NCBI RefSeq assembly: GCF_947503045.1
Contig: NZ_CANNCF010000006.1
Location: 62,001 to 126,000, forward strand
Direction: 5' to 3'
DNA: 64,000 nucleotides
Source of the DNA: an uncultured Tateyamaria sp.
GTDB lineage: Bacteria; Pseudomonadota; Alphaproteobacteria; Rhodobacterales; Rhodobacteraceae
Shown here: one piece after another, positions 11,320 through 45,399 of the stretch
How the letters are laid out: every line of letters begins with the position of its first letter
How positions within the stretch are numbered: the first letter of the stretch is position 1
Notes under the pieces: generated by a model
What the model was told of the DNA's origin: nothing
What the model saw: only the letters and a program-made list of their open reading frames with translations
Database searches by the model: none
Position numbers and translations under genes: made by a program

Positions 11320-11471
11320 ATCGGCGCAGTCTTCTTTGTCTATGCCGTAACAACATAGGGCCGATGCCCAGCGCTGCAATCGCGATGCTTGGGTTACGGG
11401 TGATCTTTGAGCGGGGTGAGACATGGCGGTCGGCAGGCGTGGCCGATCAAGGCGTCGAACCAAGGCGGGCA

Positions 11472-13985
11472 CTACCCGGTCCGGGGCACCTCGGCCTTGC
11501 AGTTGGCTTTCAATAGGGCGGCAAATTCCAGTTCTGCCATGGGCCGTTGCAGCACGTATCCCTGAAGGACATCGCAATCGAGCTTGCGGATCGCGGCCAT
11601 GTGGGTGCCGGTCTCCAACCCTTCGACCACGACATCCGCACCCTCCAGCCGGGCGATGCGCGACAGGCTTTGCAGTATCTCCAACTGCTTGGCGTGGGTG
11701 CCCAGATAGGTCACCAGGCTGCGGTCGATCTTGACCGCGTCGGGCTGCAGCGCCTGCAACGCCTTGACCGACGCGTGACCAGTGCCAAAGTCGTCCATTT
11801 CGATCCGTATGCCCATCTCGCGGATCGCGTCCAGCTTGTAAAGCAAGGCCGTGCTGGGGGTGTCGTAAAATGTGGTTTCAAGCAACTCAAACGCAATCTC
11901 ATGGTGATCACGCAGGTCGGCCCTCGTCTGTTCCAGCAGGGCCTCATCCTCAAGGCGCGCCCGAGAGATGTTGACGGAAATGCGCGGAAAACTGAGCCCC
12001 AGGTCCGTCCATTCGGTCTGCAAGGTGGCGACGCGCTGAAACACGCAGCGATCAATTGCATCGAGCAGGCCCGCATCAATGGCGTTGGGCAGAAACTGCG
12101 CCGGGGCCAGCAAACCGCGCTTGGGGCATTGCCAGCGCACAAGCGCTTCTGCGCCGACGATCTCAAGGGTTTCCGCATCATATTGCGGCTGGAAAAAGCA
12201 CACGATCTGATCCGCGTTCAGCGCCGCCTTGAGGTCTTGGCGGGTGTTTGAGACCAGATGGAACTCGGCCCCCACCTCTTCGCTATAGGCGCGGTAACAA
12301 AAACGCCCGGCCCGCTTGGCGGCATAAAGGGCCGTATCGGCCTCGATAAAGATCGACGATTGGGATCGCGGCTGGCCGTGGCCAATCGCATAGCCAATGC
12401 TGGCGCCCACCGAACAGGGCTGACCCTGAAAGGACATCGGCGCGCTGATCGCCTCGATCAGCTGATCGCACATCGCGTTGAGCACATCCTTGTCCGGCGC
12501 ATCTTCAAAAAGCACCGCAAATTCATCGCCCCCGACCCGAAACGGCTGGCCCATGGTCCCGATGGTATCGACCAGAATATCGCTCACCTGCGACAGCACG
12601 AAATCACCTGCCGGGTGCCCTAGCGTATCATTCACCTTTTTGAAGTGGTCGAGGTCGATATGCATTGCCGCATAGCAACTGTCGCCCGAGATGCGATTGA
12701 ACAACTCTGCCGCCGCCTGATCGAGCCCACGGCGATTCCCAAGACCGGTGAGTTCGTCGTGCAGGGCGTCATGTTCCAGCTTGGCGCGCGCCACCTCCAA
12801 CTCTTCGGCGCGACGATAGTCTTCGGTGACGTCGAAATTCACACCGATCAGCTTGGTCGGCCCGTTTGGCGCGGTCACTGTGCGCGCAAGACTTCGGATA
12901 TGGCGCACCGTTCCGCCAGGGCGGACAATGCGGTAATCACGTTTGAAGTCCGTGTTCAGGCGCTGACACTCGCGCGCATAGGCCACCGTCGCTTCATAGT
13001 CATCGGGGTGCAGATGCGTTTCCCACAGGTTGTCAGAACGGACGTTCGACCCATCGCTGATCCCGTAGATTTCCAGCATGCGGTCATCCCAATGCACCTT
13101 TCTGGTCTCGGGATTGAACTCCCAAATCCCCATGCCCGATGCCTCGACCGCAAGCTTGAGCTTGCCTGCAAGCTGGTTGATGGCCTCCTGACTGTGCATC
13201 GCCTCGGAAATGTCGGTGTCGGTGCCGACAATCTGCACAGGCCTGCCGCTCGAATCCGTCTCGACCACGCTGGCACGGCACAGGATCCAGACCCAATGCC
13301 CCTCGTCGTGCAGATGCCGGTACTGGATGACGATACTCTTGGCTCCGCCGTCCCGCTGGTCATCAAAGGCCTCCCGCAGGCGGGCGCGATCCTCGGGGTG
13401 GACCTGTGCCAGCCAGTTGTCATTGGACATGTCGATCACATGATCCTCGGACCAGCCGCGCAATTTGCGCCACGCCTTTGAGGCGACAAAGGCGCCCGTC
13501 TGCAGGTTATAGTCCCAAACCCCCTGATCGAGGTTTTCCATCAGGTAGCGCAATGTCGGACTTTGAGCGCATTGATCCGGCGTCATCTGGCACAGGATCC
13601 CGGCAAAAGCGCCGTCATAGGTCAAACGGGTCAGGTCCGCGGAATGGGTTGTGACCAACGCGCCGGGCAGTTGCCAGTCCAGTTGGTACCGCCCGGGACG
13701 CAGGCCTGTCACGTCCCGCGCCATCTGTTCGACTTTTGCGCGATCAAAGGGCTTGAGGGTCTCGAGGAAATCGTCCGGTGCAATCGCGGGAAAAGCCCGG
13801 TCTCGCAAAGACCGAAAGGCACGGTTTTCATGGCTGATCTGCCCCACACCCTGCAAGACAGCCGCCGGATGCGGCAGGGTGTCCACAATCAGTCTGAGCG
13901 AGGCCAGATCGATTGCATCGCAAAGGGCGTCCTTGGTCGACAAGAGGCGTTCATCCTGGTGCTTGGTCGGAACGTAGGGGCTCAA
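11472..13985 (-). CDS. PAS-GGDEF-EAL cyclic-di-GMP signalling protein
   Basis: This 837-residue cytoplasmic protein has an N-terminal sensor part and two PAS folds with PAC tails (about 145-270 and 285-395). A diguanylate cyclase domain with intact GGDEF (RVGGDEFAVLF) follows, then a phosphodiesterase domain with intact EAL (GAEALVRW), DDFGTG and KIDRSLV. Both enzyme active sites look intact, so it may make or break c-di-GMP. No RxxD inhibitory site precedes GGDEF at the usual distance. No transmembrane segment is visible, so the PAS domains probably sense an internal cue. It uses a TTG start with AGGCAG upstream. Confidence 0.93.
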   Translation of the reverse strand: MSPYVPTKHQDERLLSTKDALCDAIDLASLRLIVDTLPHPAAVLQGVGQISHENRAFRSLRDRAFPAIAPDDFLETLKPFDRAKVEQMARDVTGLRPGRYQLDWQLPGALVTTHSADLTRLTYDGAFAGILCQMTPDQCAQSPTLRYLMENLDQGVWDYNLQTGAFVASKAWRKLRGWSEDHVIDMSNDNWLAQVHPEDRARLREAFDDQRDGGAKSIVIQYRHLHDEGHWVWILCRASVVETDSSGRPVQIVGTDTDISEAMHSQEAINQLAGKLKLAVEASGMGIWEFNPETRKVHWDDRMLEIYGISDGSNVRSDNLWETHLHPDDYEATVAYARECQRLNTDFKRDYRIVRPGGTVRHIRSLARTVTAPNGPTKLIGVNFDVTEDYRRAEELEVARAKLEHDALHDELTGLGNRRGLDQAAAELFNRISGDSCYAAMHIDLDHFKKVNDTLGHPAGDFVLSQVSDILVDTIGTMGQPFRVGGDEFAVLFEDAPDKDVLNAMCDQLIEAISAPMSFQGQPCSVGASIGYAIGHGQPRSQSSIFIEADTALYAAKRAGRFCYRAYSEEVGAEFHLVSNTRQDLKAALNADQIVCFFQPQYDAETLEIVGAEALVRWQCPKRGLLAPAQFLPNAIDAGLLDAIDRCVFQRVATLQTEWTDLGLSFPRISVNISRARLEDEALLEQTRADLRDHHEIAFELLETTFYDTPSTALLYKLDAIREMGIRIEMDDFGTGHASVKALQALQPDAVKIDRSLVTYLGTHAKQLEILQSLSRIARLEGADVVVEGLETGTHMAAIRKLDCDVLQGYVLQRPMAELEFAALLKANCKAEVPRTG

Positions 13986-14326
13986 TTCTGCCTAAATTGT
14001 CGGAGTTACAATTTCGCTAAGTGGGCTTGGTCCCGCACTGGAACGCGTGTGACCCGGACAAGCACAGCGTCAAGAAACTTTGTCGGATTTCGAACAGATC
14101 GTCAGGGCAGCGTCAGATGTATTGTAGTGAAGGGACGAAGGAACACCTGCGACGCTCTGGCACACAGTGCGCATGCGTTCGTCGGAGCGGTGTTTTGCGG
14201 GCGATGCGGGCCCGATGCAGAGGCGCCAAATGAGCACATTTTCATTCCAATTGGACGGCAGACAAAGACAGCATCACCTTGCACAAAAGGCCTGGACGCA
14301 CCTCGTCGAATGAACGACCGGGTATA
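13986..14326. other. Gene-free stretch
   Basis: About 340 bases separate the start of the PAS-GGDEF-EAL gene and the stop of the TetR gene, both on the minus strand. The promoter of the signalling gene should be here. I see no tRNA, clear hairpin terminator or coding frame with recognisable content. Confidence 0.35.
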
Positions 14327-14965
14327 CTAGGGTTCAGCACTCCAGACCCGATCCAGGGCGCTGACGGGTGTGCCCGCATCAACATAAGACTGGATCAGTC
14401 GGTCCATCGCGTTTCGGGTCAACTGATTGTGCCCGCTCGACACGCCAAGGCTCGCCACCATTTTCCAATGCCCATACATCAGCGCGACGAACAAATAGGA
14501 CAGCTCCTCCGAAGACTGTTTGCCCAATTCGGGATGTGCCAGTTGAAACTCGTGGCTCAGGACCTGACCCAACAGGACGTATTGCCCCCTGAGGTTTTCG
14601 CGCACGCGCAATGAGCCGGCCGCGATGCTCATCATCGCGTCGTATACTGCGTCGTCCCTGGGCTTTCCGACCCCATCAATGAGATCAAAATAGAAATCCA
14701 GAAACATCTCGAGACGCGCCGACCCCACCAGTTGCGCTGCATTCTGTAAAAGGGCCTCGCGATAGGCGTTGGCGAGGAAATCGCAAATCGCCACCATAAG
14801 TGTCTCGGGGTCTTCGTAGTGATAGCGGACCAACTGCCGCGACACCCCGGCCTCCGCCGCGATCCTGTCATAGGACAGGGGCGGCAAGCCTTCTTTGTTC
14901 AACGCCTTGAACGCACCTTCAATGATACGAACGCGCGTGTCCTTGGGCTCGTCTGACTGCGTCAT
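14327..14965 (-). CDS. TetR/AcrR family transcriptional regulator
   Basis: This 212-residue regulator has an N-terminal TetR helix-turn-helix (about residues 10-55: IAAEAGVSRQLVRYHYEDPE) and an all-helical ligand domain. The ATG at 14965 lies directly after a strong AGGAGG; a GTG at 14992 is an alternative start. No target is obvious: its neighbours are a c-di-GMP enzyme and a chemoreceptor, both transcribed in the same direction but with long gaps. The regulated genes may lie elsewhere. Confidence 0.88.
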   Translation of the reverse strand: MTQSDEPKDTRVRIIEGAFKALNKEGLPPLSYDRIAAEAGVSRQLVRYHYEDPETLMVAICDFLANAYREALLQNAAQLVGSARLEMFLDFYFDLIDGVGKPRDDAVYDAMMSIAAGSLRVRENLRGQYVLLGQVLSHEFQLAHPELGKQSSEELSYLFVALMYGHWKMVASLGVSSGHNQLTRNAMDRLIQSYVDAGTPVSALDRVWSAEP

Positions 14966-15357
14966 CCTCCTGCCCCCTAAATCAATTCTCACATCAATCT
15001 AAGCAGCATTTATGCGAAGTCGGACGCGACCCCGTCAATGAATACAGCTTGTTAGGTCACGCAAAAGAGTATCGAGGCGGGCCAATTCTCCGCCGTCTGT
15101 TGAAGAGAAAGGCGGTTCCACATTGACCAAAATCAGGCACGCACCCACGCATGGTCAGGAACAGCATTCATACCGTTTCTATCTCGCAGTGCATAAAGCC
15201 GTCTCCCAATTGCGAAGAATGTGACAACGCCTTCGCACAGGCATCCAGCAATTCCCAACGCTCCGGCTTTGTTCGAGGCGCGGCGATAAATCAATGTACA
15301 GTGTCCAATCCCGCACACGTCACGTGGAAAATGGGTACAACTCTAGATGTTCCGGCG
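14966..15357. other. Gene-free stretch downstream of the chemoreceptor gene
   Basis: About 390 bases between the TetR start and the chemoreceptor stop. It should hold the TetR promoter. Small frames exist (for example 15133-15318 on the minus strand) but lack a ribosome site or recognisable content. Nothing further can be supported. Confidence 0.3.
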
Positions 15358-17928
15358 TCAAAACTCTTCCCATCCTCCACCGCCAACAACCTTCGCCGGG
15401 GCGGGTGCGTCGGCGGGTTTGGCAACTGTCTGCTTCATCGCGACGACCTGTCCATACTCGCCCGTACGGAACCGCGCGGTCGACTGCTGCAGGCTTTCTG
15501 CCTCGCTGGCCAGCACAGTGCTGGCGGCGGTGACTTCCTCGAAGGACGCGGCCTGCTCCTGCGTGTTTTGATCGATCAGGCCAACGGCCGAGGCGATTTC
15601 GCCAATTCCGCTCGCCTGTTCGGCAATTGCGGCGGAGACTTCTTCAACTCCGGTCGTGATCCGGATGACACTCTCGGCAATCGTTTCAAGCGAAGACCGC
15701 GCATTCCTGACTTTTGTCACGCCCTCTGACACCGCCTCGTCACTCTTGGTAATGACGGTATCAATCTCCTTGGCAGCCTCGCCCGCGCGCTGCGCCAGTT
15801 GCCGCACTTCGGAGGCGACGACGGAAAACCCGCGCCCCGCATCCCCTGCCCGCGCCGCCTCGACCCCGGCATTCAGGGCCAACAGGTTGATCTGGAACGC
15901 AATATCGTTGATGACGCCGACGACGCGCGCAATCTCGTTTGAGGCGTCCGCAATACGCTCCATCGAGCTGGCCGCATCTGCAGCCACCTGTTCACTGGAC
16001 ACTGCCGTGTCGCGTGCGGATCGCGCATTCTTGCTGGCATCGTCAATATTCCCGCTCACCTGCTTGATGCTCGCCGTCAACTCTTCCAGCGCGGCGGAGG
16101 TTTCCTCAAGCGAGGCGGCATTGCGTTCGGCCTGTCGCGACATATCGGCGGCCGTGTCGCGCATTTCCGCAGACGAGGACGCAAGTGTTGTGCCACTGCG
16201 GGAAATGTCACCAATCAGCGACTTCAACGACTCCATCATGTCGTTGACGTTGCCCTGAAGGCTCCCAAATGCGCCGCGGAAATCACCCTCCATTCGTTTG
16301 GAAAGATCACCGTCCGCGATGCGTTCCAGAACCTGACCGGTGTCGGACAAGCCCTGATCGACGACACTGAGCAGCTGATTAATGTTTTCAGCAAGATCAT
16401 TGAGAACGCGATCCGAGAAATTCGCCTCAACCCGTTCGGAAAACTCACCCTCAATGGCCGCTTCGACAACACGCCCAAACGACTTGCCCAGATGACCCAT
16501 CATCTCTTCACGTTCCGCCGCGACCTGTGCGTCAGCCTGCTCTCTTTCCTTGGCCAATTCGACCTCGCGCCGGGCGGCTTTCTCGCGCTCTTTGGCCATT
16601 TCGGCCATTTTGCGGTTGGCTTCTTCCTGCTCGGCGTTCAGGGCTTCGACCTTTATGGCATTCTGCTTGAACACCTCGGTTGCACGGGCCATTTCACCCA
16701 CTTCGTCCGCGCGCTCAATACCGGGAATCTCCGTTTCATAGGTCCCGCCCGCAACACGGCGAATTGCAACGGTCAGCTTCTGAACCGGTCGCGAAATCGT
16801 CCGCGAGAAAAAGACCGAAATCGTCAGAACCGCCATAAAGGTCGCCACGGCAATCCCAACTGCCCATTTTAATGCCCAAGGCAGTCCGGCGAACAATTCC
16901 GCCCTGTCCTGCTGAACAATTGCGACCCAAGTTGTGCCCAGAAACTCGATTGGCGCATAAAACGCCTTTACGTCACGACCCGTCGGCTCGGTGTATGCGG
17001 ACAGTCCCGATTGGCCCGCAAGGCCCGCGCGCACAACATCCAGATCGTATTCGGTGCTCAGGATATCGTCCTCTTCGGACATGATGGAATCTGTGCGCAT
17101 GAGAAAATCAGCACCCACCAGAAATCCGTCCGCCGTCTCACCAAGCCCTTCGAGATCACTTGCCGCTGTGTTCAGCTGCCCAATCGGCATCTGATAGGCC
17201 AGCACGCCGATGCGTTTGCCATTTTCGTTGAACACCGGACGCGAGATAAAGGCCGCCGGAGCAAAGGCGCTTGGCTCGTAAGGTGCGAAATCTACGAAGA
17301 AAGCCGGATCGCTCGCATTCAACTCCATCGCGCCGCGAAACACTTGGCCAAGGCCGGAATCCTTCCACGGACCGGTCAGGAGGTTGGTGGCATAGTCATT
17401 TTCCTTGAACACACTGTAGACCAGATTGCCCTCGGGATCGAACAGGAAGATATCGTAATATTCCATCTCGTTTTGCAAAGCATCCAGCGCCGGATGGTAG
17501 ACCGCATGGATAAAACCATAGCTTGATCCGGTATCGGTCGACACCAACAGATCTTTTTCGCCCAGCGGATGCGGGTTGTCCGTGATATAGGCCCGCTGCA
17601 GCACCTCCGCCGCGTTCTCGGTCGAGGCAAAACCATCCGCCAGCGCAATCAGCGCCGTTCTGACCGACGGATCCGACGCTCGCAGCCGCAGGTCGCGGTC
17701 GATGGTGTTCAAAAGGGTCTCAACTTCCTTGACCTTGAGGATGCCAACGCCTTCCAGCCGCTGGCTTGCGCCATCAGTGATGATGCGTTTGGTCAGGGCA
17801 GAGTTGGCAAACACCAACACGAGGATTGTGGTGGCAACCAGGGCGCTTATCAGCAGGGGAAGCTTGATCCCGATCTGGTTGATGGACGCGCGCAGGCCTT
17901 GATGCGAAGCAGGGTTTTCGGATGTCAT
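15358..17928 (-). CDS. Methyl-accepting chemotaxis protein with periplasmic sensor domain
   Basis: This 856-residue chemoreceptor has a first membrane helix at about 22-43, a periplasmic Cache-like sensor domain (about 45-340) and a second helix (about 350-372). A HAMP domain, a charged coiled coil rich in Glu/Lys/Arg, a second HAMP-like stretch and the signalling domain follow. The hairpin tip appears as [20 protein letters not shown]. The last five residues, GWEEF, after a Gly-rich linker resemble the tethering pentapeptide that binds CheR/CheB. The start at 17928 ([10 protein letters not shown]) is preferred over a 30-codon upstream extension. No che operon is nearby. Confidence 0.93.
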
Positions 17929-18470
17929 GGCTGCGCACTCCGGAATTGCGTTGTAAAGGCGTTCGTTTGGGAACCAAATGGACCTATCGGCGACAACAAG
18001 GCATGCCAGACTGCGCACCTAGCCGCGCCGCGCGCACCAACTTGTCGATGCCGGTGAGTCCGCCGCCTGTTTTGTCCAGTGATGGCAGTGAATGCCATGG
18101 CCCATTGATCCTTCAGTCGCTCAGGTGGCCATTCGATACCCCGCAAATGTTACTGATTGCTGAACCCAAGTGCAGGTCGGGCGCCGCGGTGAATGCAAAA
18201 TGCCGGGCTGGACCAGCCTTGCTGTTCGAAGCCCGGCGAAATGCGACAACTATCCTAACGCGGAGCGGTTGGAGAAATGCGAGGTGGATGTCGGAGATGC
18301 AAAAAATGCGACTCGCAGGTCGACGCAAATCGGGAGCCTTCGATGCACCAGTCGGCCCCAGAATTCTGAGCAGAGCTCCGATTCCCTGAAACTCCAAAGA
18401 AGCCGGGCGCATCAGAACCGAGCGCCAAGCGCATGCTCACATGCTGATACAAAACCGCCAAATGAGAAGC
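17929..18470. other. Chromosomal intergenic stretch left of the mobile element
   Basis: About 540 bases of backbone-like composition between the chemoreceptor start and the proposed left attachment core. It should contain the chemoreceptor promoter. A 7-bp inverted repeat CCGGGCT/AGCCCGG (18203-18209, 18230-18236) and an AATGCAAAATG string (18192-18202) that recurs at the right junction are visible. A 102-codon open frame (18170-18511) has a non-protein-like composition and is not called a gene. Confidence 0.4.
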
Positions 18471-18632
18471 ATGGTGCGGTCAGACAGAGAAAATTCGAAC
18501 GCTGTCCTTAGCCAGTTTAACAATTCTTGTGGGCGCGCACAGCCTTCCATTGATGAGGTGTTTGATGAGCTAGAACGATGGCACGACATAATCAGGCCAC
18601 TTGCTGACGAGTTGCGAGGACCGCGTCCATGA
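18441..18632 (+). CDS. Small protein upstream of mobC; possible detached recombinase C-terminus
   Basis: This 63-codon frame ends in an ATGA overlap with mobC, which suggests that ribosomes do read it. Only residues from the Met at 18471 on would belong to the element. From there it reads MVRSDRENSNAV and ends in a helix-like acidic/basic stretch (DEVFDELERWHDIIRPLADE). The proposed attachment core encodes its Met-Val-Arg. If the element circularises at that core, these 52 residues after Met would join in frame to residue 508 of the serine recombinase and give about 560 residues, a normal family size. Alternatively it is just a small leader gene for mobC. Confidence 0.5.
   Translation: MLIQNRQMRSMVRSDRENSNAVLSQFNNSCGRAQPSIDEVFDELERWHDIIRPLADELRGPRP
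18471..18479 (+). repeat. Proposed left attachment core (attL)
   Basis: ATGGTGCGG recurs at 40638-40646, across the 3' end of tRNA-Leu. In both places the bases read as codons Met-Val-Arg in the frame of a real or proposed recombinase product. GC content drops just to the right. A nine-base match is short, as is normal for serine recombinases, so this assignment needs a circular-junction or empty-site sequence. Confidence 0.5.
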
Positions 18633-19024
18633 CTTTACAGCAAACAAAGCCTCAACAAAGAACACCCAAGAAACGCCCCGCCCCGTTGTCTCTCCGACTG
18701 TCGGACGAAGAACGTACACTTCTAGAGCAACAGGCAGGGAACTTGGCGCTTGGTGCCTACATCAAGCTAGTGGTTTTTGACGAAGCGGCACCCACATACC
18801 GCAAGCGACAAAAACCACCTGTTGCTGAACAACAGCTCTTGGCGGAAGTGCTGGCGCGTCTAGGGCAATCACGCACAGCCAACAATCTCAATCAGATCGC
18901 CAAGCATCTGAACCAAGGCACGTTGGTTGTAGATGAAGAATTAGAAGCCGACTTGCAGCAAGCCATTGCCGAAGTCGCGTGGATGCGTGCGACCTTGATG
19001 AAAGCCCTCGGGATCAAGCCATGA
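18629..19024 (+). CDS. mobC: MobC-like relaxosome accessory protein
   Basis: This 131-residue protein has LSLRLSDEERTLLEQQAGNL near residues 15-35, the start of a ribbon-helix-helix-like DNA-binding fold. A C-terminal segment rich in Asn/Leu/His (NNLNQIAKHLNQGTL) is typical of plasmid MobC/MobS proteins that help the relaxase at oriT. It overlaps the small upstream frame and the relaxase gene (ATGA at 19021), so all three are translationally coupled. The origin of transfer is expected just upstream, but no certain nick site is visible. Confidence 0.85.
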   Translation: MTLQQTKPQQRTPKKRPAPLSLRLSDEERTLLEQQAGNLALGAYIKLVVFDEAAPTYRKRQKPPVAEQQLLAEVLARLGQSRTANNLNQIAKHLNQGTLVVDEELEADLQQAIAEVAWMRATLMKALGIKP

Positions 19025-20301
19025 TCATCATCGCTTCTCAACGCTCTGGTGCGCGGGCGCTGGCAGATCATTTGATGAATCATCGCGACAATGATCACGT
19101 CACTCTGGCCAAGGTTGATGGATTCATGGCCGATGATCTTCACGGTGCGTTGGATGAAGCCTATGCGGTTTCAAAGGCGACCCAATGCACACAGTTTATG
19201 TTTTCAGTCAGCTTAAACCCGCCGGAAGATGCCTTCGTTTCTGAGGAAGAGTTTGAACAGGCTGCGCAACGCATCGCAGACAAGCTCGGGCTTCAAGATC
19301 AACCCCGAGCCATGATCATCCATGAAAAACAAGGACGGCGTCATGCGCATGTTGTGTGGTCACGTATCGATGCTGACAGCATGAAGGCCATCAACCTCCC
19401 CCATTTCAAAGTCAAACTTCGCGATGTTTCAAAAGAGCTGTTCTTGGATCATGGTTGGGAACTCCCAAAGGGTCTTAAAACCTACGGCGACAAAGACCCT
19501 CTGAACTTCACACTGGAAGAATGGCAGATTGCGCAACGCGTTGGTGTTGATCCAAGAGAGATGAAGCAGCTTTTTCGTGAGGCATGGGCACAATCCGATG
19601 ATGCGAAGTCTCTGAAGGCGGCGTTGACTGACAAAGGTCTGTATCTCGCCACGGGAGACCGCCGTGCGTTCGTCGCCTTGGATATTCATGACAACATCTA
19701 TTCACTGTCGAGATGGATGGGCGTCAAAGCAAAAGACATCAAAACTCGACTGACGGACGCAGGTGATTCAAAATCCCCCGCCGACGTTACAGAGTGGCTG
19801 CGTGCCCGCAAAACCGATCAAGTGCGTGACTACATCCAGCAGATCAAAGACAAGCATGGTCGTGAAATGCAGCCATTCTATGCGGAGCGCGCCGCGATAG
19901 TAAAAGCACAGCGCAAGGAACGCGCTGATCTCAAGCTCAAACAAGACAAACGATGGGCCGAAGAAACCCAAAGTCGCTCTGATCGCCTTAACAGGGGTCT
20001 GCGCGGATTGTTTGATCGGCTCACAGGCGCGCATCGCCGGATCATCAAACGCAATGAAGTTGAGGCATTATCATCCTCGCGCCGCGATCAAGAACAGCGA
20101 GATCAATTGATCTTGACACAAATGGCCGAGCGCAAGGACTTGCAGCAACGGGTCAAACGGCTCAAATCCAGCCAGAGGAGAGACCGAGGCCTACTGGCGC
20201 GCAACATCGCTAGCTACCTAATACGGCAGCAAGCTCACACAAATCGCGCAACAAGTCAGCGAGTTCACAGCCGATCCCGCAGCCTTGGGTTCACTCGGTG
20301 A
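19021..20301 (+). CDS. Relaxase / mobilization nuclease
   Basis: This 426-residue relaxase should nick one strand at oriT and lead it into a recipient. The histidine metal motif is visible as H108-A-H110 (GRRHAHVVWSRID), with His101 just before. The C-terminal third is highly charged and helical (KAQRKERADLKLKQDKRWAE). I see no tyrosine in the first 30 residues, where many relaxases of the MOBP type keep the nicking residue, so the nucleophile may be a later Tyr such as Tyr48. Start at 19021 overlaps mobC. No primase or helicase domain is fused. Confidence 0.88.
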   Translation: MIIIASQRSGARALADHLMNHRDNDHVTLAKVDGFMADDLHGALDEAYAVSKATQCTQFMFSVSLNPPEDAFVSEEEFEQAAQRIADKLGLQDQPRAMIIHEKQGRRHAHVVWSRIDADSMKAINLPHFKVKLRDVSKELFLDHGWELPKGLKTYGDKDPLNFTLEEWQIAQRVGVDPREMKQLFREAWAQSDDAKSLKAALTDKGLYLATGDRRAFVALDIHDNIYSLSRWMGVKAKDIKTRLTDAGDSKSPADVTEWLRARKTDQVRDYIQQIKDKHGREMQPFYAERAAIVKAQRKERADLKLKQDKRWAEETQSRSDRLNRGLRGLFDRLTGAHRRIIKRNEVEALSSSRRDQEQRDQLILTQMAERKDLQQRVKRLKSSQRRDRGLLARNIASYLIRQQAHTNRATSQRVHSRSRSLGFTR

Positions 20302-21899: not shown

Positions 21900-22135
21900 G
21901 AGTAGTACAGCGCCTTTCCCGTGGTAACGTATTTGCCATGATAGTCCTGTCTCCTGCTCCATGCAGTACGTAAACAGTGTGCCTGTCGAGTGTATCAACT
22001 GCAAACGTCTAGATCACTTTATCCCAAACAAATCTTCGAAGCCTTCACCCGCAATCACCCGTGTTTCACCTGAGACGGGTGTGGGTTTGATGTTTCATGA
22101 GAGCGGCACGTTCAATCTTTGAAAGGAGACGTGCT

Positions 22136-23941
22136 GTGAAACTTCCACTTAACCACTTGGCCACGTTTGGTCTGTGCCTTGCCCTCGGGCTGGTCACGAC
22201 CAATGCGGCTGCTCAGGGCTTTTTCGACCCTGATCAACGGTACTATCTCACCCAATCAGAATGGCAGATGCGCATGTCAATGTTGCGTGTCGTCATGATT
22301 GGTGGGGCTACCGGGCTGGGCTTTGCCATCGGCTGGTTCTTTTCACCTGCTGCGCGTGAGCTGCGCGCGGCCATCGCCGTTGGAGCGGCGGTCGTAGCTT
22401 GCGCTGTTGCTGTCTTGAACCATGGCCCGCTGGGCTGGAGCCTCGCCACTTTGATTGCCATGATCGGCTTTTGTTACGGCGTAGGCTATTGGTTTGATCA
22501 AGCCGTGCGCCGTTTGGGCGAAACCCCAACCACGTTCGGGTCTGCCAAATGGGCAGATGCGCAGCATTTAGCGCAAAAGGACATCTTTGGCAGCTCGGGC
22601 ATTCTGCTCGGGTCGTATTTTGATGGGCAATATTGGCAAAAGATCTCCTACAAGGGAGATCGTCACGCCTTTACCTATGCCCCAACACGATCAGGCAAAG
22701 GTGTGTCGCACATCATTCCAAACCTGCTGGAATACCTCGGCTCGGTGCTGGTCATTGACGTCAAAGGCGAAAACCTCCTGATCACCGGCAAAGCGCGCGC
22801 AGAGATGGGCCAAGAGGTTCTGGCCTTCGATCCCTGGAACATCGCTGCCGAAGAGGCAGGGTTCACGCCTGCGCGGTTCAACTTTCTGGATTGGATTCAA
22901 CTCACTGATCCCAACGCGCCGGAGAATGCGATGGTACTCGCTGAATCCTTCGTTGTTAAAAACGACAAGGGTGATCCGTTCTGGCAGGAAGAGGCCAAGG
23001 CTCTCGTTCGGGGTCTGATCTTGCTGGTGGCTTTTGACATCACCTATCACGACAAGCGCCATATGGGCACTGTGCGTGACCTGCTGTTGCTCACCGGTGA
23101 TGATCAAACATCCTTGTTTGAATATATGGCCAACAGCCCGCATGCGCTGATTGCCTCGACCGGGGCGCGGTTCCTGCAAAAGGATGATAAGCTGCTCTCC
23201 AGTGTGATGGCCTCGGCGCAAGCTGAGACGCACTTTCTGGATAGTGAGCGGGTGCGGGATGCGATTAGCACATCTGACTTCGATTTTGCTGACCTGAAGA
23301 CCAAAGCCATGTCGGTCTATCTGATCATACCCGCAGATCGGGTTGAGGCATTCTCACGGCTCTTACGCGCCATGGTGCAACAATCCATCACCGTCAATGC
23401 GCGCAATATCGGCGAGAAGCCAGAAACACCGGTGCTGTTCATCCTCGATGAAATGCCTTCTTTGGGGCGTCTGGCATCTGTCGAGCAAGCTTATGGGCTG
23501 ATGGCAGGGTTTGGCATGCAAATCTGGGGCATTGCCCAAGACCTCTGTCAGATGCGTCGGGTCTATGGTGAGGATTATGAAAGCTTCATCGCCAATAGCG
23601 GGGTTGTTGCGTATTTTGGTTCGCCTGATGAACGCTCTACCGAGTATTTTTCTAAGCTGTGTGGTGTGACTACTGTTTGGAATTTCTCCTCAGCCTTGGC
23701 ATCGGCGTTCAGCTCATCCTCTGGGGCTGGTGGCGGCTCCAGCAGCACGTCAAACACAAACACCGACACACGGGCCGCGACACAGCGCAAGCTGATCTTT
23801 GCGGACGAGTTGCGTCGTTTGGATGATGATCTGCAGTTGATCCTGATCGAAAACGCCAATCCCATCATGGCGCGCAAGATCAGATGGTTTGAAGACCCTG
23901 ATCTGAAAGACAAAGGCGTCAATCTGCACGACGCAGCCTGA
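22136..23941 (+). CDS. Type IV coupling protein (TraG/VirD4 family)
   Basis: This hexameric ATPase would link the relaxosome to a mating pore. A GTG start at 22136 fits the GAAAGGAGA ribosome site; 601 residues result. An N-terminal leader and two to three membrane helices cover about 1-125. The Walker A APTRSGKG is at about 182-189 and the Walker B VLFILDEMPSLG at about 437-448. An unusual Ser/Gly/Asn-rich segment (about 520-550) lies near the C-terminus. It is large for an element without its own pore and suggests compatibility with a helper conjugation system. Confidence 0.93.
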   Translation: MKLPLNHLATFGLCLALGLVTTNAAAQGFFDPDQRYYLTQSEWQMRMSMLRVVMIGGATGLGFAIGWFFSPAARELRAAIAVGAAVVACAVAVLNHGPLGWSLATLIAMIGFCYGVGYWFDQAVRRLGETPTTFGSAKWADAQHLAQKDIFGSSGILLGSYFDGQYWQKISYKGDRHAFTYAPTRSGKGVSHIIPNLLEYLGSVLVIDVKGENLLITGKARAEMGQEVLAFDPWNIAAEEAGFTPARFNFLDWIQLTDPNAPENAMVLAESFVVKNDKGDPFWQEEAKALVRGLILLVAFDITYHDKRHMGTVRDLLLLTGDDQTSLFEYMANSPHALIASTGARFLQKDDKLLSSVMASAQAETHFLDSERVRDAISTSDFDFADLKTKAMSVYLIIPADRVEAFSRLLRAMVQQSITVNARNIGEKPETPVLFILDEMPSLGRLASVEQAYGLMAGFGMQIWGIAQDLCQMRRVYGEDYESFIANSGVVAYFGSPDERSTEYFSKLCGVTTVWNFSSALASAFSSSSGAGGGSSSTSNTNTDTRAATQRKLIFADELRRLDDDLQLILIENANPIMARKIRWFEDPDLKDKGVNLHDAA

Positions 23942-24922: not shown

Positions 24923-24950
24923 CAGGATGGCGCAGATATGTGCTATCCTG
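24923..24950 (+). promoter_or_regulatory. RNA hairpin over ribosome site and start codon, copy 1
   Basis: Twelve-base arms (24923-24934 and 24939-24950) around a GATA loop can pair fully as RNA when G-U pairs are allowed. The left arm holds AGGA, the likely ribosome site; the right arm holds most of the start codon at 24938. The second copy keeps the pairing by different wobble pairs, which favours a translational control hairpin, though a protein operator is also possible. Confidence 0.5.
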
Positions 24951-25306
24951 TTTGCATGTCTCAAGTTGAGTTTATGCAGTTTCTCCAATCCGTTAAACAT
25001 GACCACCCGAGTTACGTCCCCGTCATGCGGCTCTACCCCAACTCTGCTGGTGCAGACCTGATGGTCCATCTGCCGCAAAACTCATGGGACTATGTTGATT
25101 GGCTCGAAGGACGCGGTGATATCGACTTCACAGTCTGGGTTCAGCATTGCGAACAAACGCCGTTCGATGGCTGGCCGATCTCCAAGCTCCTGATGTACTG
25201 GTTGTGGTTGGATAGCTGTCGCAGGCATCGCAATGGGTTGGAAACCTTCTCAGACAGGCTGCCAGAGGGATATGATGCGTTTGGGGAACCAGCGAATGAT
25301 GAGTAG
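24938..25306 (+). CDS. Small protein of unknown function, paralogue copy 1
   Basis: This 122-residue protein is rich in Trp/Tyr and acidic residues, with HLPQNSWDYVDWLEGRGDID in the middle and a C-rich motif (WVQHCEQTPF, WLDSCRRH). It is close to the protein of 26035-26403. ATG 24938 has AGGA upstream; an in-frame ATG at 24956 is an alternative start. No known family is recognised. The two copies could be an antirestriction-like, regulatory or immunity protein; none of these is supported directly. Confidence 0.6.
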   Translation: MCYPVCMSQVEFMQFLQSVKHDHPSYVPVMRLYPNSAGADLMVHLPQNSWDYVDWLEGRGDIDFTVWVQHCEQTPFDGWPISKLLMYWLWLDSCRRHRNGLETFSDRLPEGYDAFGEPANDE

Positions 25307-26019: not shown

Positions 26020-26047
26020 CAGGATAGTGCAGATATGTGCTATCCTG
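26020..26047 (+). promoter_or_regulatory. RNA hairpin over ribosome site and start codon, copy 2
   Basis: Arms 26020-26031 and 26036-26047 around GATA. Differences from copy 1 at arm positions 7, 9 and 10 leave every pair possible (Watson-Crick or G-U). It overlaps the start codon at 26035. Confidence 0.5.
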
Positions 26048-26403
26048 TTTGCATGTCTCAAGTTGAATTTATGCAGTTTCTCCAGTCCGTTAAAGACGAT
26101 CATCCTGACTATGCACCCGTCATGCGGCCACACAAAAACACTGCCGGTGCAGACGTGATGATCCATCTGCCGCAAAACTCATGGGACTATGTTGATTGGC
26201 TCGAAGGACGCGGTGATATCGACTTCACCGCCTGGGTCCAGCATTGCGAACAAACACCGTTCGATAACTGGCCGATTTCAAAGCTGCTGATGTACTGGCT
26301 CTGGCTGGATAGCTGCCGCAGGCATCGCAATGGGTTGGAGACGTTTTCAAACGTGCTGCCAGAGGGATATGACGCGTTTGGGGAGCCTGCGAACGACGGG
26401 TAG
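26035..26403 (+). CDS. Small protein of unknown function, paralogue copy 2
   Basis: This 122-residue protein differs from copy 1 at scattered positions, mainly in the first third (for example VMRPHKNTAGADVMIHL in place of VMRLYPNSAGADLMVHL). The central and C-terminal parts, including both cysteine motifs, are nearly unchanged. Retention of two intact copies suggests both are functional or that the duplication is recent. Same start uncertainty as copy 1 (26035 or 26053). Confidence 0.6.
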   Translation: MCYPVCMSQVEFMQFLQSVKDDHPDYAPVMRPHKNTAGADVMIHLPQNSWDYVDWLEGRGDIDFTAWVQHCEQTPFDNWPISKLLMYWLWLDSCRRHRNGLETFSNVLPEGYDAFGEPANDG

Positions 26404-28079: not shown

Positions 28080-28766
28080 TCACATCCTCACAGCATCTCG
28101 AACAGCCCTTACAATTGTCTGCGGAGAAATTTGAAGCTCTTCAGCCAGCATTTCTATAGTAGCGGCTCCTGCATCCAACCGCTCCCGCAAGATCACAGCG
28201 ACATCCGGCGAAATGGCGCGTGGGCGACCAATGTGAACACCTCGTGCACGTGCCGCTTCCATACCAGCCTTGGTGCGTTCCCGTATTTGTTCACGCTCAA
28301 ACTCAGCAAACACTGCCAAATGCCCATAGAGCATCCGCCCGATGGCCGTCGTTGTGTCGATCCCTTGTGTGAGGGCAATGAAATCCACACCGTTTTCCCG
28401 CAGGTCTTCGAGCAACTGTAATAGATGCAGCATGGATCGGCCTAACCTGTCGAGTTTCCACACCACCAACACGTCACCGGGTTCTAGGTCATACAGCAGA
28501 GTATCCAACGAGCGGCGCTTGATACGCGCGCCTGAGATGCCAAGATCGCCGTAGATGACATCGCAGCCCGCTGCCTCCAACGCATCAACCTGCAGGGCCT
28601 CGCTCTGATCAGCATCCGACACACGCACGTAACCGATTTTTCGTCCTGTATGCGCCTCTCCTGCTGGGTCAGGACTATCTCTCTGTTTGGACTCATTCTT
28701 TTTCGATTTGGGGCTTTTCATTCCATCATTCTGACATACAGAATCCGTCCAACAAGCGGTTTTCAT
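28080..28766 (-). CDS. Small serine recombinase (resolvase/invertase family)
   Basis: From the ATG at 28766 (AAGGA site upstream) this is 228 residues. The catalytic serine is Ser50 in GYVRVSDADQ. The arginine motif appears as VWKLDRLGRS, and the linker helix as FAEFEREQIRERTKAGMEAA. A C-terminal helix-turn-helix (EMLAEELQISPQTIVRAVRD) is complete. It has an extra lysine-rich N-terminal tail of about 40 residues. Resolvases of this kind resolve plasmid or transposon multimers or invert DNA. Two palindromes lie just upstream. Confidence 0.9.
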   Translation of the reverse strand: MKTACWTDSVCQNDGMKSPKSKKNESKQRDSPDPAGEAHTGRKIGYVRVSDADQSEALQVDALEAAGCDVIYGDLGISGARIKRRSLDTLLYDLEPGDVLVVWKLDRLGRSMLHLLQLLEDLRENGVDFIALTQGIDTTTAIGRMLYGHLAVFAEFEREQIRERTKAGMEAARARGVHIGRPRAISPDVAVILRERLDAGAATIEMLAEELQISPQTIVRAVRDAVRM

Positions 28767-28784
28767 TGCAAATAGTCCTTGTCT

Positions 28785-28798
28785 AAAGGGGTCCCTTT
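28785..28798 (+). promoter_or_regulatory. Palindrome 1 between resolvase and divergent gene
   Basis: AAAGGGGTCCCTTT is a near-perfect 14-bp palindrome preceded by TCT. Its exact reverse complement occurs at 28903-28916. The pair lies in the 186-bp divergent gap, fitting resolvase binding subsites or an operator. Confidence 0.5.
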
Positions 28799-28902
28799 GC
28801 AACGCCGCGTCCATTGATGATTTGATCGGCAAGCCCCTGCCAAAAAATCTGTGGAAAACAAGTCTCTGACGATTTGGAAGCCGAATGCCAGTAGAACTAT
28901 CT

Positions 28903-28916
28903 AAAGGGACCCCTTT
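28903..28916 (+). promoter_or_regulatory. Palindrome 2 between resolvase and divergent gene
   Basis: AAAGGGACCCCTTT, again preceded by TCT, starts 118 bp from the first palindrome and 37 bp before the ATG at 28953. It is the reverse complement of palindrome 1. Confidence 0.5.
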
Positions 28917-28952
28917 TGCTGTGCCGCTCAAAAATCAAGCGAGACACATCAA

Positions 28953-34871: not shown

Positions 34872-36116
34872 TTAGAAACTTAGGTTAGAATGATGACGTG
34901 GTCTGATCAAGTTACCAAATTGAGTTAGCCTCGCGTCAAAAGACAAATCGATCGGCCCGGTCGGGCCATTGCGCTGTTTTGCTACCAAAATCTCAGCATA
35001 ACCGTGAACGCGCTCCATATGCTCCTGCCAATTGGCTAGAGCCTCCAAGTCGTAATCATCAGGGCGCTGCTGTTCCACATAAAATTCTTCGCGGTGCAGG
35101 AATAAGACCGTATCAGCAAACTGGTTGATCACTGCAATCTCGGCGAGATCAGAAACCCTTGGTCGTTTGTCACTCCGTTTCGCGACAACCCTTCCAAGAT
35201 CAGCCGTCGCGAAAATACAAAGATCGTGTTCCATGGCTATACGTTTCAGCGCCCTTAAGACTGTCTCAATCTCAGATGCATGTCTTTGGCTACTAGCGCG
35301 ACCATCCGAAAAGTCATCAATCATGTCCACCACGAGCAAGTCTAGCCCTGCCTCACGTTTTAGTTGTCGGGCTCTGATTGCCAATGCGTCAAGCTCCGCC
35401 AATGAGTCATTGATAAACAAAGGAATATTTTCAAGCATTTTAGCTGCTTCGACATAGTTCCTGAATTCATTTTCGGTTATATCACCGCGTTGGATGTTCA
35501 CTACAGGTACACCGCTTTCAATGGCTAGTATACGTTGAGCCAGCTGCTCCGCTTTTAGTTGAAGAGAAAAGTACCCTACGCTACCTCCAGTTTTACGCGG
35601 ATGATCGCCCAAACTGGCTTTCGCTATGTTGAAAGCGATTTGCGTACTGATCGCTGTTTTCCCAATAGATGGTGCTGCAGCCAAAACAACTAGACTCGCT
35701 GGGCTTAATCCTCCTATTTTTCTGTCTAAATCAACAAAACCTGTAGGCAATCCAGAGATATGATCATCTCTTTGAAAAGCTGCGTTTGTCGCATTGACTG
35801 CCCCCGATATGGAATGCAGAAAGGTTTTGAAACCTGTGTTATCTGATATTTCTGGCAATGGAGACGTCAGTTTTTGAGCTAACTCTTGCATTTGAAGAGC
35901 TGACACGTGTTCTGGTAAATCAGAACTGATAATAAACGCCTCCATATCTGAGCCCCGAAAATCCAAATCCGAAATAGACAGCTGGCGAAAGTCAGTACTT
36001 GGATCAAGGCCTGCAATTGCGCATAGGTCTGAAAGCGAAGCTGTTTTTGAATGCCGTACTGCCTTCAACAACGCTAAATTAGGAGAAAACTCTCTAACTT
36101 TCTTATCTTCACCCAA
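34872..36116 (-). CDS. DnaB-like helicase/RecA-fold ATPase
   Basis: This 414-residue protein has a DnaB C-terminal type ATPase core: Walker A AAAPSIGKTA (about 149-158), a Walker B-like LLVVDMIDDF, and the sensor region TADLGRVVAKRSDKRPRVSD, parallel to DnaB's SQLNR-to-KRPxxSDL. The usual DnaB N-terminal domain is missing. Instead about 110 residues include DFRQLSISDLDFRGSDMEAF, which resembles pentapeptide repeats. A TTG start directly follows the stop codon of the upstream gene, so the two are translationally coupled. A role in element replication is likely; a defence ATPase is an alternative. Confidence 0.75.
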   Translation of the reverse strand: MGEDKKVREFSPNLALLKAVRHSKTASLSDLCAIAGLDPSTDFRQLSISDLDFRGSDMEAFIISSDLPEHVSALQMQELAQKLTSPLPEISDNTGFKTFLHSISGAVNATNAAFQRDDHISGLPTGFVDLDRKIGGLSPASLVVLAAAPSIGKTAISTQIAFNIAKASLGDHPRKTGGSVGYFSLQLKAEQLAQRILAIESGVPVVNIQRGDITENEFRNYVEAAKMLENIPLFINDSLAELDALAIRARQLKREAGLDLLVVDMIDDFSDGRASSQRHASEIETVLRALKRIAMEHDLCIFATADLGRVVAKRSDKRPRVSDLAEIAVINQFADTVLFLHREEFYVEQQRPDDYDLEALANWQEHMERVHGYAEILVAKQRNGPTGPIDLSFDARLTQFGNLIRPRHHSNLSF

Positions 36117-38817: not shown

Positions 38818-39120
38818 ATGGCCATGCCCCGCCTGCCGTCCCACGACGAGTCTTTTGATCCCCGCCCTACTCTCAGCATCGACTGGGAAGTCTATGCTGC
38901 CATGTTGGAAGAGAGCGATATGCCGCTCGACCAACAAAAGGAACTGATCGAAACGCTCTGGTCGATTGTGGTGATGTTTGTTGATCTGGGCTTTGATTTG
39001 AACCCTGTTGCGCAAATCTGTGGGGAAGACGAAGAAGCATTGTCCGACGACCCACCGGATTTGGTACAATTGTTGGGACAAAAGCTGATCAAACAAAACC
39101 AACACGAGGAGGATGCATGA
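38818..39120 (+). CDS. Small acidic partner gene upstream of the serine recombinase
   Basis: This 100-residue acidic protein is preceded by AAAGGA and overlaps the recombinase start by four bases (ATGA). It contains DQQKELIETLWSIVVMFVDL and a long acidic tail. Small genes of this kind in the same coupled position are seen upstream of large serine recombinases in Rhodobacterales elements. A direction factor or regulator of the recombinase is possible from position alone. Confidence 0.7.
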   Translation: MAMPRLPSHDESFDPRPTLSIDWEVYAAMLEESDMPLDQQKELIETLWSIVVMFVDLGFDLNPVAQICGEDEEALSDDPPDLVQLLGQKLIKQNQHEEDA

Positions 39121-41368
39121 ACCAGATACAAACAAAACCAAGCAAGGCGGTGATATACACCCGTGTGTCTGGGGCCAAGCAGGTCCGCGAAGGTGATGGC
39201 CTCGCCTCCCAAGAAAACCGGTGTCGCGAATATGCCACTTACAAGGATTATGATGTGGTCGAAGTCTTCAGCGATGACATGTCAGGCAAGTTTGAACGCC
39301 GCCCGGCCATGGATCGGATGCTGGCCTTCCTGCGTTTGAACAGGAAAAACAATATCGTCGTCATCATCGATGACATCAGCCGCTTTGCCCGCAATGTGCA
39401 GGCCCATATCAAACTGCGCGAGACGCTGGCTGATGCGGGCGGAATTTTGGAAAGCCCTTCCATTGAGTTTGGTGAGGATAGTGACTCCCGGCTTGTCGAG
39501 CACATGCTGGCCTCTGTGGCGCAGCATCAACGCGAAAAGAACGCAGAACAAACGTCCAACCGGATGAAGGGCCGGATGATGAATGGGTATTCGGTCTTTG
39601 CCGCGCCTATCGGTTACACATACAAAAAGACCGGCGCGCATGGGAAATTGCTCACGCGTGATGAGCCTGTCGCCTCCATCATTAAAGAAGCAATGGAAGG
39701 GTATGCGTCTGGACGCTTTGGCACACAGGCGGAAGTGACGCGCTTCTTAGAAAGCCAGCCGGACTTTCCAAAAGACCTTCCCGGTGGCCATATCCGCCAG
39801 CAAAAAGTCAGCGATATGCTCAACCGCGTGATCTATGCTGGATACATCGAGCATGAACCTTGGGGCATTACGCGCCGCAAAGGTCATCATGAACCCATCA
39901 TCTCACTAGAGACGTTCCTGAATATCCAAGATCGTAAAGCGACCAAGACAGTTGCTCCCATGCGCAAAGACCTGAACCATGACTTCCCGCTTCGTGGTGC
40001 AGTAACCTGTGCTTGCTGTGATCAGCCTATGACGTCTTGCTGGTCTAAGAGCTCAACAGGCAAGCGCTATCCCTATTACTGGTGCCAGACCCGCGATTGT
40101 TCTGAGTATCGCAAGAGCATCCGCGCAGAGAAGATCGATGCGGGCTTTGGAGACATCCTCAAAGGCATGACGCCCACCAAGGGGCTGCTGTCCGTGGTGA
40201 AGGCGATGCTCAAATCCGCCTGGGATCAAAGACTGGATCAAGCGTCCAGCAGCAAACAGGCTTGCAAACGCGAGATTGGCCAGTTGGACAAGCAACAAGA
40301 GGCTCTCATCGAGCGTTTGGTCGAAACCTCGAATCCAAAAGCCATCGCAGCCTTTGAAACCAAGATCGCCAAGCTGGAAGATGAGAAGCTCATTCTCACA
40401 GAAAAGATGGGACAAAATACCAAACCGCGCGTGACCGTGGGCGAGATTTTCGAACTATTGAATGAGTTCCTCGCAAACCCCTGGAATATATACCAAAACG
40501 GCAATCTGAGAGTGAAGAAAACAGTGCTGAAAACAGTGTTTCGCGCACCCTTGGCCTACGACCGAAGAATTGGATTTCGAACGCCGCAAACCTCTGTAAT
40601 CTTTAGGTTTTTGGAGGAAATTTCGGGAAAATGCAAAATGGTGCGGGTGAAGGGACTCGAACCCCCACGCCAAAGGCGCCAGAACCTAAATCTGGTGCGT
40701 CTACCAATTCCGCCACACCCGCATGCACGTGGGCTTAGCAAAGCCCGCATCAGGACGCGAGAGGTATTCGCGCACCACTATGGCAGAAATTGCATAACCT
40801 CGCGCGACATTAAAGAAATCTTGAGGTATCTTTGGCTCAACCTAGAGGCAGGTTGTAACAAGAGAGACGCCATGAAACCGAATACGGTCGGGCGCGAATT
40901 GAGCGGGCGGATGCCCCCTTTGCGCACAGAGATATGCCATGTCGGGCTTGTGTCCGGCACACTCCTTTTGACAGCTGACGGCGAAATACCGGTCGAGTAT
41001 CTCTCGCCCGGGGATCGCATCATCACGCGCAATGCGGGGCTGGTCCCGCTTGCCGCGATCAAGACGGTGCGGGCCCGCGAAGAGGCAGTGAAGATCGCCG
41101 CCGGTTCGCTGGGCGACACCAAGCCCACGCATCACGTGATGATCCCCGCCGCCCAGATGGTTCTGGTGCGCGACTGGCGGGCCAAGGCGCTGCGCGGTGC
41201 GGCGCAGGCGGTGATGCCCGCAGGGTGCCTGATCGATGATGAGTTCATCACGGCACTTGGCGTGCGCGACATGACGCTGGTGCGTCTGGGCTTTGACGCG
41301 CCTTACGTGGTTTACGCTGATGGGCTGGAAATGTCTGTGCCTGCAATGAGCATGGCAGAGGTCGACGC

Positions 41369-41372
<4 letters not shown>
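39117..41372 (+). CDS. Large serine recombinase (element integrase), reading through the right junction
   Basis: The catalytic domain starts with Ser18 in VIYTRVSGAKQVREGDGL. The recombinase domain, a zinc ribbon (cysteines from about residue 298, CACCDQPM ... YWCQTRDC) and a coiled coil (about 380-445) follow. Residue 508 is at the proposed attachment core. From there the frame continues without a stop through the antisense strand of tRNA-Leu (VRVKGLEPPRQRRQNLNLVR) and into the chromosomal Hint gene, giving 751 codons. Element-encoded sequence ends at about 40640, so the last 243 residues are chromosomal. Before integration the tail would differ. Confidence 0.93.
40638..40646 (+). repeat. 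Proposed right attachment core (attR)
   Basis: ATGGTGCGG overlaps the encoded CCA and acceptor end of tRNA-Leu and repeats at 18471-18479. The tRNA is left intact, as expected when an element targets its 3' end. Confidence 0.55.
40639..40722 (-). tRNA. tRNA-Leu(UAG), integration target
   Basis: An 84-nt class II tRNA on the minus strand with an encoded CCA at its 3' end (40639-40641). Acceptor GCGGGTG pairs with CACCCGC. The anticodon loop TTTAGGT gives anticodon TAG. The long variable arm CGCCTTTGGCG and T loop GGTTCGAGTCC are intact. The element lies directly 3' of it. Confidence 0.97.
40872..41372 (+). CDS. Hint-domain protein
   Basis: This 166-residue chromosomal protein has a Hint-type core: VSGTLLLTADGEIPVEYLSP near residues 28-47, then GDRIITRNAGLVPLAAI and THHVMIP. 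Hint domains autocatalyse cleavage in inteins and hedgehog proteins, but these short Roseobacter forms are single-domain and of unknown role. Its own start at 40872 has a purine-rich leader; the same frame is also open from the recombinase. Its stop overlaps the convergent NAD(P)HX repair gene by four bases. Confidence 0.75.
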
Positions 41373-45105: not shown

Positions 45106-45399
45106 ATGCAGATGGAATCGATCAGTGAATTTGAACGGAGGCTCAAGCTTATCCAGTCCCGCACGCGGAAGCGGGCGCAGCGTGTCTATGTCCCGTCCGA
45201 AGACGATATCCGCCGCACCATCCCGACGCCCCGCCCCGGCTGGCCGATGCCCATCATCGCCACAGTTGTGGGCGTTGCCCTGCTTGCCGGTCTGATCGCC
45301 GTTGCGCGCGACGACATCGCGCGTCTGATGTCCGCACCGGACGAGGCGCAGCGGGTCAGCCTTCTGGACTCGAACACCTCCGATCCGATCACAAACTGA
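45106..45399 (+). CDS. Small single-helix membrane protein (paralogue 1)
   Basis: This 97-residue protein has a basic N-terminal stretch, one membrane helix (about 48-67, MPIIATVVGVALLAGLIAVA) and a short acidic outside tail. It shares layout and motifs with the next protein (EFERRLKLIQ versus EFEQRLARIR; LLAGLIAVARDDIARL versus LMAGLIGYVWDDIAIL). They are tandem paralogues. Function unknown. Confidence 0.7.
   Translation: MQMESISEFERRLKLIQSRTRKRAQRVYVPSEDDIRRTIPTPRPGWPMPIIATVVGVALLAGLIAVARDDIARLMSAPDEAQRVSLLDSNTSDPITN

Follow-up and report, generated by a model that had tools for sequence, protein, structure and literature searches.

In Tn916, joining of the element's ends links the recombination module to the transfer genes, and the tyrosine integrase is not known to change as a protein. 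Serine integrases must have a rule for keeping integration apart from excision, and their excision needs a directionality factor. Integration-dependent immunity of mycobacteriophages was reportedly described by Broussard in 2013. In such phages, as set out in the accessible text of two papers, attP lies near the 3' end of the repressor gene, and integration removes a C-terminal stretch of the protein (PMC6109161, PMC9934374). Archaeal tyrosine integrases carry attP in their own genes, and self-disrupting recombinases are termed exclusively archaeal in the available part of a review (PMC8371274). The serine recombinase of the Dehalococcoides ssrA islands (DsiB) is described in the accessible text as integrating at the tmRNA T-loop (PMC3146451), and the word tRNA is absent from the available main text of a large LSR survey (PMC10083194). 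Among open-licence full texts, the accessible portions yielded no case of a serine integrase whose own gene contains attP.

We analyzed a stretch of 64,000 nucleotides (the window) from an uncultured Tateyamaria sp. As read from its sequence, the window holds a mobilizable element of ~22 kb, 18471 to 40638, at the 3' end of a tRNA-Leu gene (Table 1). The element is classed as integrative and mobilizable, an assignment that rests on its own recombinase and relaxase as predicted by Pfam. Its attP is placed by this analysis inside int, between a full serine-integrase domain set and a conserved C-terminal tail, with the predicted crossover within the three bases of the tRNA CCA. Such an anatomy almost certainly encodes two protein forms, that of the circle having the conserved tail and that of the chromosome having 4 to 468 arbitrary residues instead. 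What appears to be new is attP in its own gene for a bacterial serine integrase; attP in phage repressor and archaeal tyrosine integrase genes was already known.

Table 1. Features of the integrated element and its junctions, in window coordinates
Feature	Position	Strand	Basis
Element half of attL (= attP right half): TGG, 20 bp, TCGAAC	18472..18500	+	Pattern search
Integrase C-terminal tail, 53 codons + stop, parted from int by integration	18471..18631	+	Homologous tails, same frame, purifying selection
mobC, start overlapping tail stop by ATGA	18629..19024	+	Pfam MobC
Relaxase, MobA/VirD2-like nuclease domain (likely ATG at 19021, again overlapping the mobC stop)	19021..20301	+	Pfam Relaxase
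Type IV coupling protein, TraG/VirD4 type	22097..23941	+	Pfam T4SS-DNA_transf
Partner ORF, conserved, no assigned family, ATGA overlap with int start	38818..39120	+	Relatives upstream of int
Large serine integrase, 507 codons up to junction	39117..40637	+	Pfam domains, structure model
tRNA half of attR (= attB half): TGG, 15 bp, TCGAAC	40639..40662	+	Crossover within TGG
tRNA-Leu(tag), kept intact by insertion	40639..40722	-	tRNA call
Chance extension of int frame: antisense tRNA, intergenic DNA, chromosomal Hint_2 gene (~40872-41372)	40638..41372	+	Pfam, congener matches

Pfam was applied to selected ORFs of the element. On the minus strand the element also encodes a resolvase with a helix-turn-helix and a protein with a DnaB-like helicase domain (28080-28931 and 34872-36116; Pfam), and two near-identical frames of 122 amino acids (24938-25306 and 26035-26403) lie ~1.1 kb apart within it.

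A sequence-only reading of this DNA had described a recombinase frame that is unstopped at the right end of the element, and the frame (39117-41372, plus strand, 751 amino acids) is indeed open through that end. Codon 508 is the ATG of the 9-bp string ATGGTGCGG at 40638, and the TGG at 40639 is the CCA end of the tRNA-Leu. The string recurs in the identical reading frame at 18471, and the residue counts given for the two states were likewise correct: residue 508 is followed by 243 residues when integrated versus 52 to a stop when joined to the left end. As evidence, however, the string is weaker than had been presented. Although it is present in frame, a third copy lies at 45213 on the minus strand, 0.97 copies are expected per window, and at least three copies occurred in 5 of 100 shuffles; because of these counts the repeat alone is weak evidence, and we judge the att site to be real because of the family evidence, not the 9-bp string.

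The first 28 codons of the 243 extra residues are antisense tRNA; intergenic DNA follows, and then a gene with a Hint domain (Pfam Hint_2). DNA like this extension lies next to the same tRNA in 18 of 19 congeners; 17 of those 18 matches start at, or a few bases from, the tRNA 3' end, and the best match continues into the Hint_2 gene region. Since the DNA of the congeners continues from the tRNA into that region, the long fusion is an accident of the insertion site.

Of 394 genomes of the taxonomic family, 75 held integrase relatives at E ≤ 1e-60; at E ≤ 1e-30, so did 23 of 385 genomes of the class. A contig scan of genomes gave 27 loci, of which six that were short or partial were left out when tails were examined; ARAGORN called a tRNA on the opposite strand at the recombinase end in 18 of the remaining 21. 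The C-terminus test covered 84 loci, 83 of them usable (L024, which had no C-terminal match, was dropped), and a called antisense tRNA adjoins the integrase end in 74 of the 83, with 20 anticodon types represented. At least four pairs of rows are the same locus fetched twice, giving a corrected count of ~70 of 79. In every one of the 74 loci with a called tRNA, the TGG is the tRNA 3' end, its first base is the second of a codon, and past the TGG the reading frame stays open (4 to 468 codons, with a median of 30). Homologues with a conserved tail that ends before the junction, which had been named as evidence that would count against the proposal, were not seen, since in all 74 the frame crosses the junction, and the conserved tail sits at the opposite end of the element. 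Most of the rows without a called tRNA (L009, L031, L107, L108, L138, L145, L151, L171, and L181) have a TGG and tRNA-like sequence, the exceptions being L145 and L181; in G388, an exception from outside the set of 74, antisense tRNA-like sequence is crossed in a different frame. Among full-length chromosomal integrase matches, internal stops were present in 3 of 73 and absent in 70. The genome of the window (G000) has two further integrases of the family, one at a tRNA-Tyr (C1, 1159048-1160559) and one at a tRNA-like end (C5, 282682-284166).

At the left end of the element, ATGGTGCGG at 18471 opens a 53-codon frame whose TGA overlaps the mobC ATG. The 53-residue tail was searched for by protein similarity, independently of the att site and frame, and was located at 17 places in 13 of 20 homologue genomes (E ≤ 0.01). 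All 18 recognizable tails overlap the next start by ATGA, and 17 are followed by an open MobC-like frame; the mobC frame of L083 has a stop. Tail loci number 27, the window included, and a TGG-N20-TCGAAC-like signature is found in all of them but L090 and L100; L069 has a second, out-of-frame match. The 25 tails that bear the signature all match the int frame and are open to their stop, with lengths of 35 to 66 codons.

Among 15 tails, the differences per codon position were 0.35/0.21/0.56 beyond the att half-site and 0.35/0.24/0.34 inside it, so the first eleven codons appear to be constrained as DNA and the remainder as protein. Pairwise dN ranged from 0.03 to 0.35 among the pairs listed, with dS mostly well higher and sometimes saturated. 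These substitution patterns indicate that the tail is under protein-level purifying selection beyond the att half-site. The tail is helical, and tails end mostly in RGPRP. A plasmid search for the close tail gave no match; in viral contigs, none of 85 pattern stretches was a relative, and the exact joined-site pattern did not occur. At L104 (G389 C8), a tail-like frame lies directly ahead of the apparent start of another family recombinase.

The crossover core common to the family is TGG only (the tRNA CCA read on the other strand), and the rest of the identity is acceptor-stem sequence. In the Yoonia element, attL reads gTGGC and attR aTGGT; because the two differ on either side of TGG, crossover is confined to those three bases. 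On the element side TGG and TCGAAC are spaced by 20 bp, versus 15 bp in the tRNA, where TCGAAC is the T-loop. The strict pattern TGG-N20-TCGAAC has two matches in all over the two strands of the window, at 18472 and 60315, and the relaxed family pattern matches at 18472 only. For the LI integrase, the accessible text of one study places the zinc-domain (ZD) motif 5 bp closer to the center in attB, with attP positions 16-24 (PMC3783163). From attB to attP the motif described here moves outward by 5 bp, an exact match to the LI integrase shift that is seen in one half-site only; inspection of the other half of attB revealed no visible motif. If GG is the crossover dinucleotide, TCGAAC lies ~3 bp farther from the center than does the LI integrase ZD motif. 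We infer that CCA serves as the crossover and the T-loop as the recognition motif, which would account for the use of so many tRNA genes.

A sister element in Phaeobacter sp. 11ANDIMAR09 sits in tRNA-Thr(tgt). When its left flank was searched in 40 genomes, its own included, exact empty sites were found in three Phaeobacter relatives (L124, L125, and L126), in which the flank (93-96% identical) leads to an intact tRNA-Thr at the TGG. In L127 and L128 the flank is followed by a 16-bp tRNA piece and then by foreign DNA, presumably that of other elements. As a separate observation, L127, L128, L031, and L107 all have ~14-16 bp of the tRNA-Thr 3' end and then other DNA, which presumably marks where another element ends or where insertions lie in tandem. 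A search of 41 genomes for an empty site of the Yoonia element returned only weak matches, elsewhere.

In Roseobacter cerasinus (L063), a degraded recombinase end, TGG-N20-TCGAAC, and the tail lie in one frame, followed by mobC. Compared with 20 genomes, this stretch of 110 residues had an end-to-end match at its own place only. Other matches cover one side, recombinase or tail, except for G063 (2-91), which passes through two stops, and short or partial ones such as L069 (49-110). We read L063 as a natural attP-like junction, though a decayed one.

For the window itself, the left flank at 18470 is joined to the tRNA in no genome examined. The suggested check for a circle or an empty site was answered by the exact empty sites of the sister element and by the joined form in L063, but not for the window's left flank; a boundary placed elsewhere by such a sequence, the other result named as counting against the proposal, did not appear. 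In two congeners the tRNA is 83-110 bp from DNA that matches the window from 11.3 kb leftwards, which makes 11.3-18.47 kb an additional difference of this genome. That region of ~7 kb (11300-18470) contains GGDEF/EAL-like, TetR-like, and chemoreceptor-like frames, named by eye. Because the congener flank differs, the left boundary in the window rests on the att signature and the tail rather than on an empty site. The central proposal of the sequence-only reading, an attP inside the integrase gene whose use swaps the C-terminus, is supported by the sister element's empty sites, the L063 junction, the 74 of 74 loci, and the tails, and the pattern extends more widely than that reading described. 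The swap may, as it also suggested, favor excision or lock integration.

The search for tails was extended to wider-family integrases, in ten upstream regions that each span up to 60 kb. Five of these regions (G000 C1, G045, G614, and G022 twice) combine the signature with an in-frame tail that fits SNxLF..L..W, and none was found in G000 C5 (where the contig ends), G521, G388, G362, or G598. Of 287 signature matches on both strands, 5 carry SNxLF..L..W, all five being upstream of int and on its strand; the motif occurs 7 times over 516 kb in six frames. A profile built on the close tails could not tell wider-family tails apart from 1400 shuffles in which the sequence up to SN was preserved, and the wider-family case therefore relies on position, frame, and the SNxLF..L..W motif. 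The frame that follows the tail in these elements is not MobC-like, yet the int/tail split is identical. A Tritonibacter mobilis plasmid carries a similar tail as well, with ~17.5 kb between it and a partial recombinase adjoining tRNA-Thr.

Resolvase, Recombinase, and Zn-ribbon domains, all three over the Pfam cut-offs, lie in the first 507 codons. R16 and S18 are invariant among the 17 sequences compared; by homology, we take S18 to be the catalytic serine of the integrase and R16 the neighboring arginine, both near the N-terminus. An AlphaFold2 model of the 507 residues (mean pLDDT, 77.5; pTM, 0.35) has the elements typical of serine integrases, among them a coiled-coil insertion in the zinc domain (helices 355-403 and 407-433) and a final helix (494-506) that adjoins the junction, and every LSR domain precedes the junction. 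Its best Foldseek matches, within the PDB, were SPbeta, Bxb1, and phiC31 integrase complexes, with TM-scores of 0.2-0.35, low as expected of a flexible multidomain protein. Judged by this model, the tail is an appendage past the known integrase domains. Of 30 loci, 22 have a relative of the partner ORF ahead of int, as do 49 of 58 loci from the wider family; the ORF has no Pfam or PHROGs match and is a candidate directionality factor.

The explanation that we favor overall, and think probable, combines the attP-in-int anatomy with a tail that acts as a state-specific module setting integration versus excision. The full-length enzyme would be made by the excised circle only, from one overlapping operon (partner ORF, int, mobC, relaxase), and would carry out attP x attB integration while being restrained from excision. 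In the integrated state the int frame is fused to arbitrary antisense-tRNA residues and the tail stays at the other end by mobC, and the shortened chromosomal enzyme, with the partner ORF as candidate directionality factor, would be the form left for excision. Recombination would in this way alter the very enzyme that performs it. The direction of the tail's effect, favoring integration over excision, is put forward tentatively. With slightly less assurance than for the overall explanation, we think that a widespread alphaproteobacterial clade combines attP in its own gene, the targeting of universal tRNA features, with CCA for crossover and the T-loop for recognition, and a free or integrated state that is a protein-level switch of directionality or activity. 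At the left end of the element, no promoter-like site was found.

The same protein pair could be used differently if the tail were needed for activity. The resident enzyme would then be weak or dead after integration, which would spare attB-like tRNA genes, and excision would need the full-length enzyme of another element. The very general targets (20 anticodon types) fit this reading, since a constantly active enzyme could do harm; the three integrase copies in the window's genome would make help in trans possible, and the archaeal suicidal integrases, excised by related elements according to the accessible text of the review (PMC8371274), provide a precedent. The shortened protein nevertheless keeps all predicted LSR domains, and 70 of 73 full-length chromosomal matches lack internal stops, although recent spread would explain the latter too. 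Since domain retention and open frames suit an enzyme still in use after integration, we consider a self-inactivating integrase rather unlikely.

If, alternatively, the join served to bring mobC and the relaxase under control of the int promoter, then the tail change would be a by-product. ATGA overlaps connect the partner ORF to int and the tail to mobC, and Tn916 is a precedent; selection on the tail as protein past the att half-site, and a split that persists in the wider family where the next frame is not MobC-like, make this an unlikely account of the whole. It is less probable still that attP sits at the int 3' end simply because the two travel together, both protein forms being alike and the swap having no regulatory role. 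Extensions as different as 4 and 468 codons are tolerated, and the accessible text on archaeal integrases holds that att within int gives a compact, exchangeable module (PMC8371274), but a tail selected as protein past the half-site implies that the full-length form does something. If the integrated element made the tail as a small peptide of its own, translation could begin at the xTG codon always left by the TGG at attL, any base before TGG yielding ATG, GTG, TTG, or CTG; the upstream DNA, however, is unconserved host sequence and the tail frame always fits int, and we hold this to be very improbable. A chance 9-bp repeat beside an accidentally open frame, with which the string by itself is compatible, has a negligible probability and is ruled out by the family evidence (the tails, the empty sites, the 74 tRNA loci, and the wider-family tails).

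If the attP-in-int reading with its state-specific tail is true, self-altering integrases extend from archaeal tyrosine to bacterial serine enzymes. Because the product of recombination rewrites the enzyme, the role of the C-terminal module in directionality becomes testable with natural protein pairs. The tRNA CCA and T-loop as attB would also provide a simple rule for locating the ends of such elements; in the available text of a Paracoccus survey, integration sites are left unidentified for 11 serine recombinases (PMC6536676). A warning for annotation follows as well, in that antisense tRNA forms the C-termini of many "recombinase family" proteins.

Among known systems, Tn916 resembles this element in that the circle join connects the recombination module to transfer genes, but here the enzyme is a serine recombinase and the protein tail changes. 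The DsiB islands likewise use a serine recombinase with an RNA gene as its integration site; they differ in target position and in having a paired second recombinase, and the available text makes no mention of an att site inside the recombinase gene (PMC3146451). With the large serine integrases of phiC31, Bxb1, A118/LI, and SPbeta, the enzyme shares the resolvase, recombinase, and zinc-ribbon domains, the coiled coil, and the 5-bp att shift; unlike theirs, its attP is in its own gene, and it targets many tRNAs at their CCA end and T-loop. As in mycobacteriophage immunity, attP lies within a gene near the 3' end and a C-terminal stretch is lost on integration, but there the gene encodes a repressor that loses an ssrA-like degradation tag, whereas here an integrase loses a helical tail ending mostly in RGPRP. 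The archaeal suicidal (SSV-type) integrases likewise have attP in the integrase gene, which is split by integration into a tRNA gene. In contrast to those tyrosine recombinases, the Pfam domains here are those of a bacterial serine recombinase, and the structure model suggests a cut after the known domains, such that the catalytic and DNA-binding parts stay together and the C-terminal tail is exchanged.
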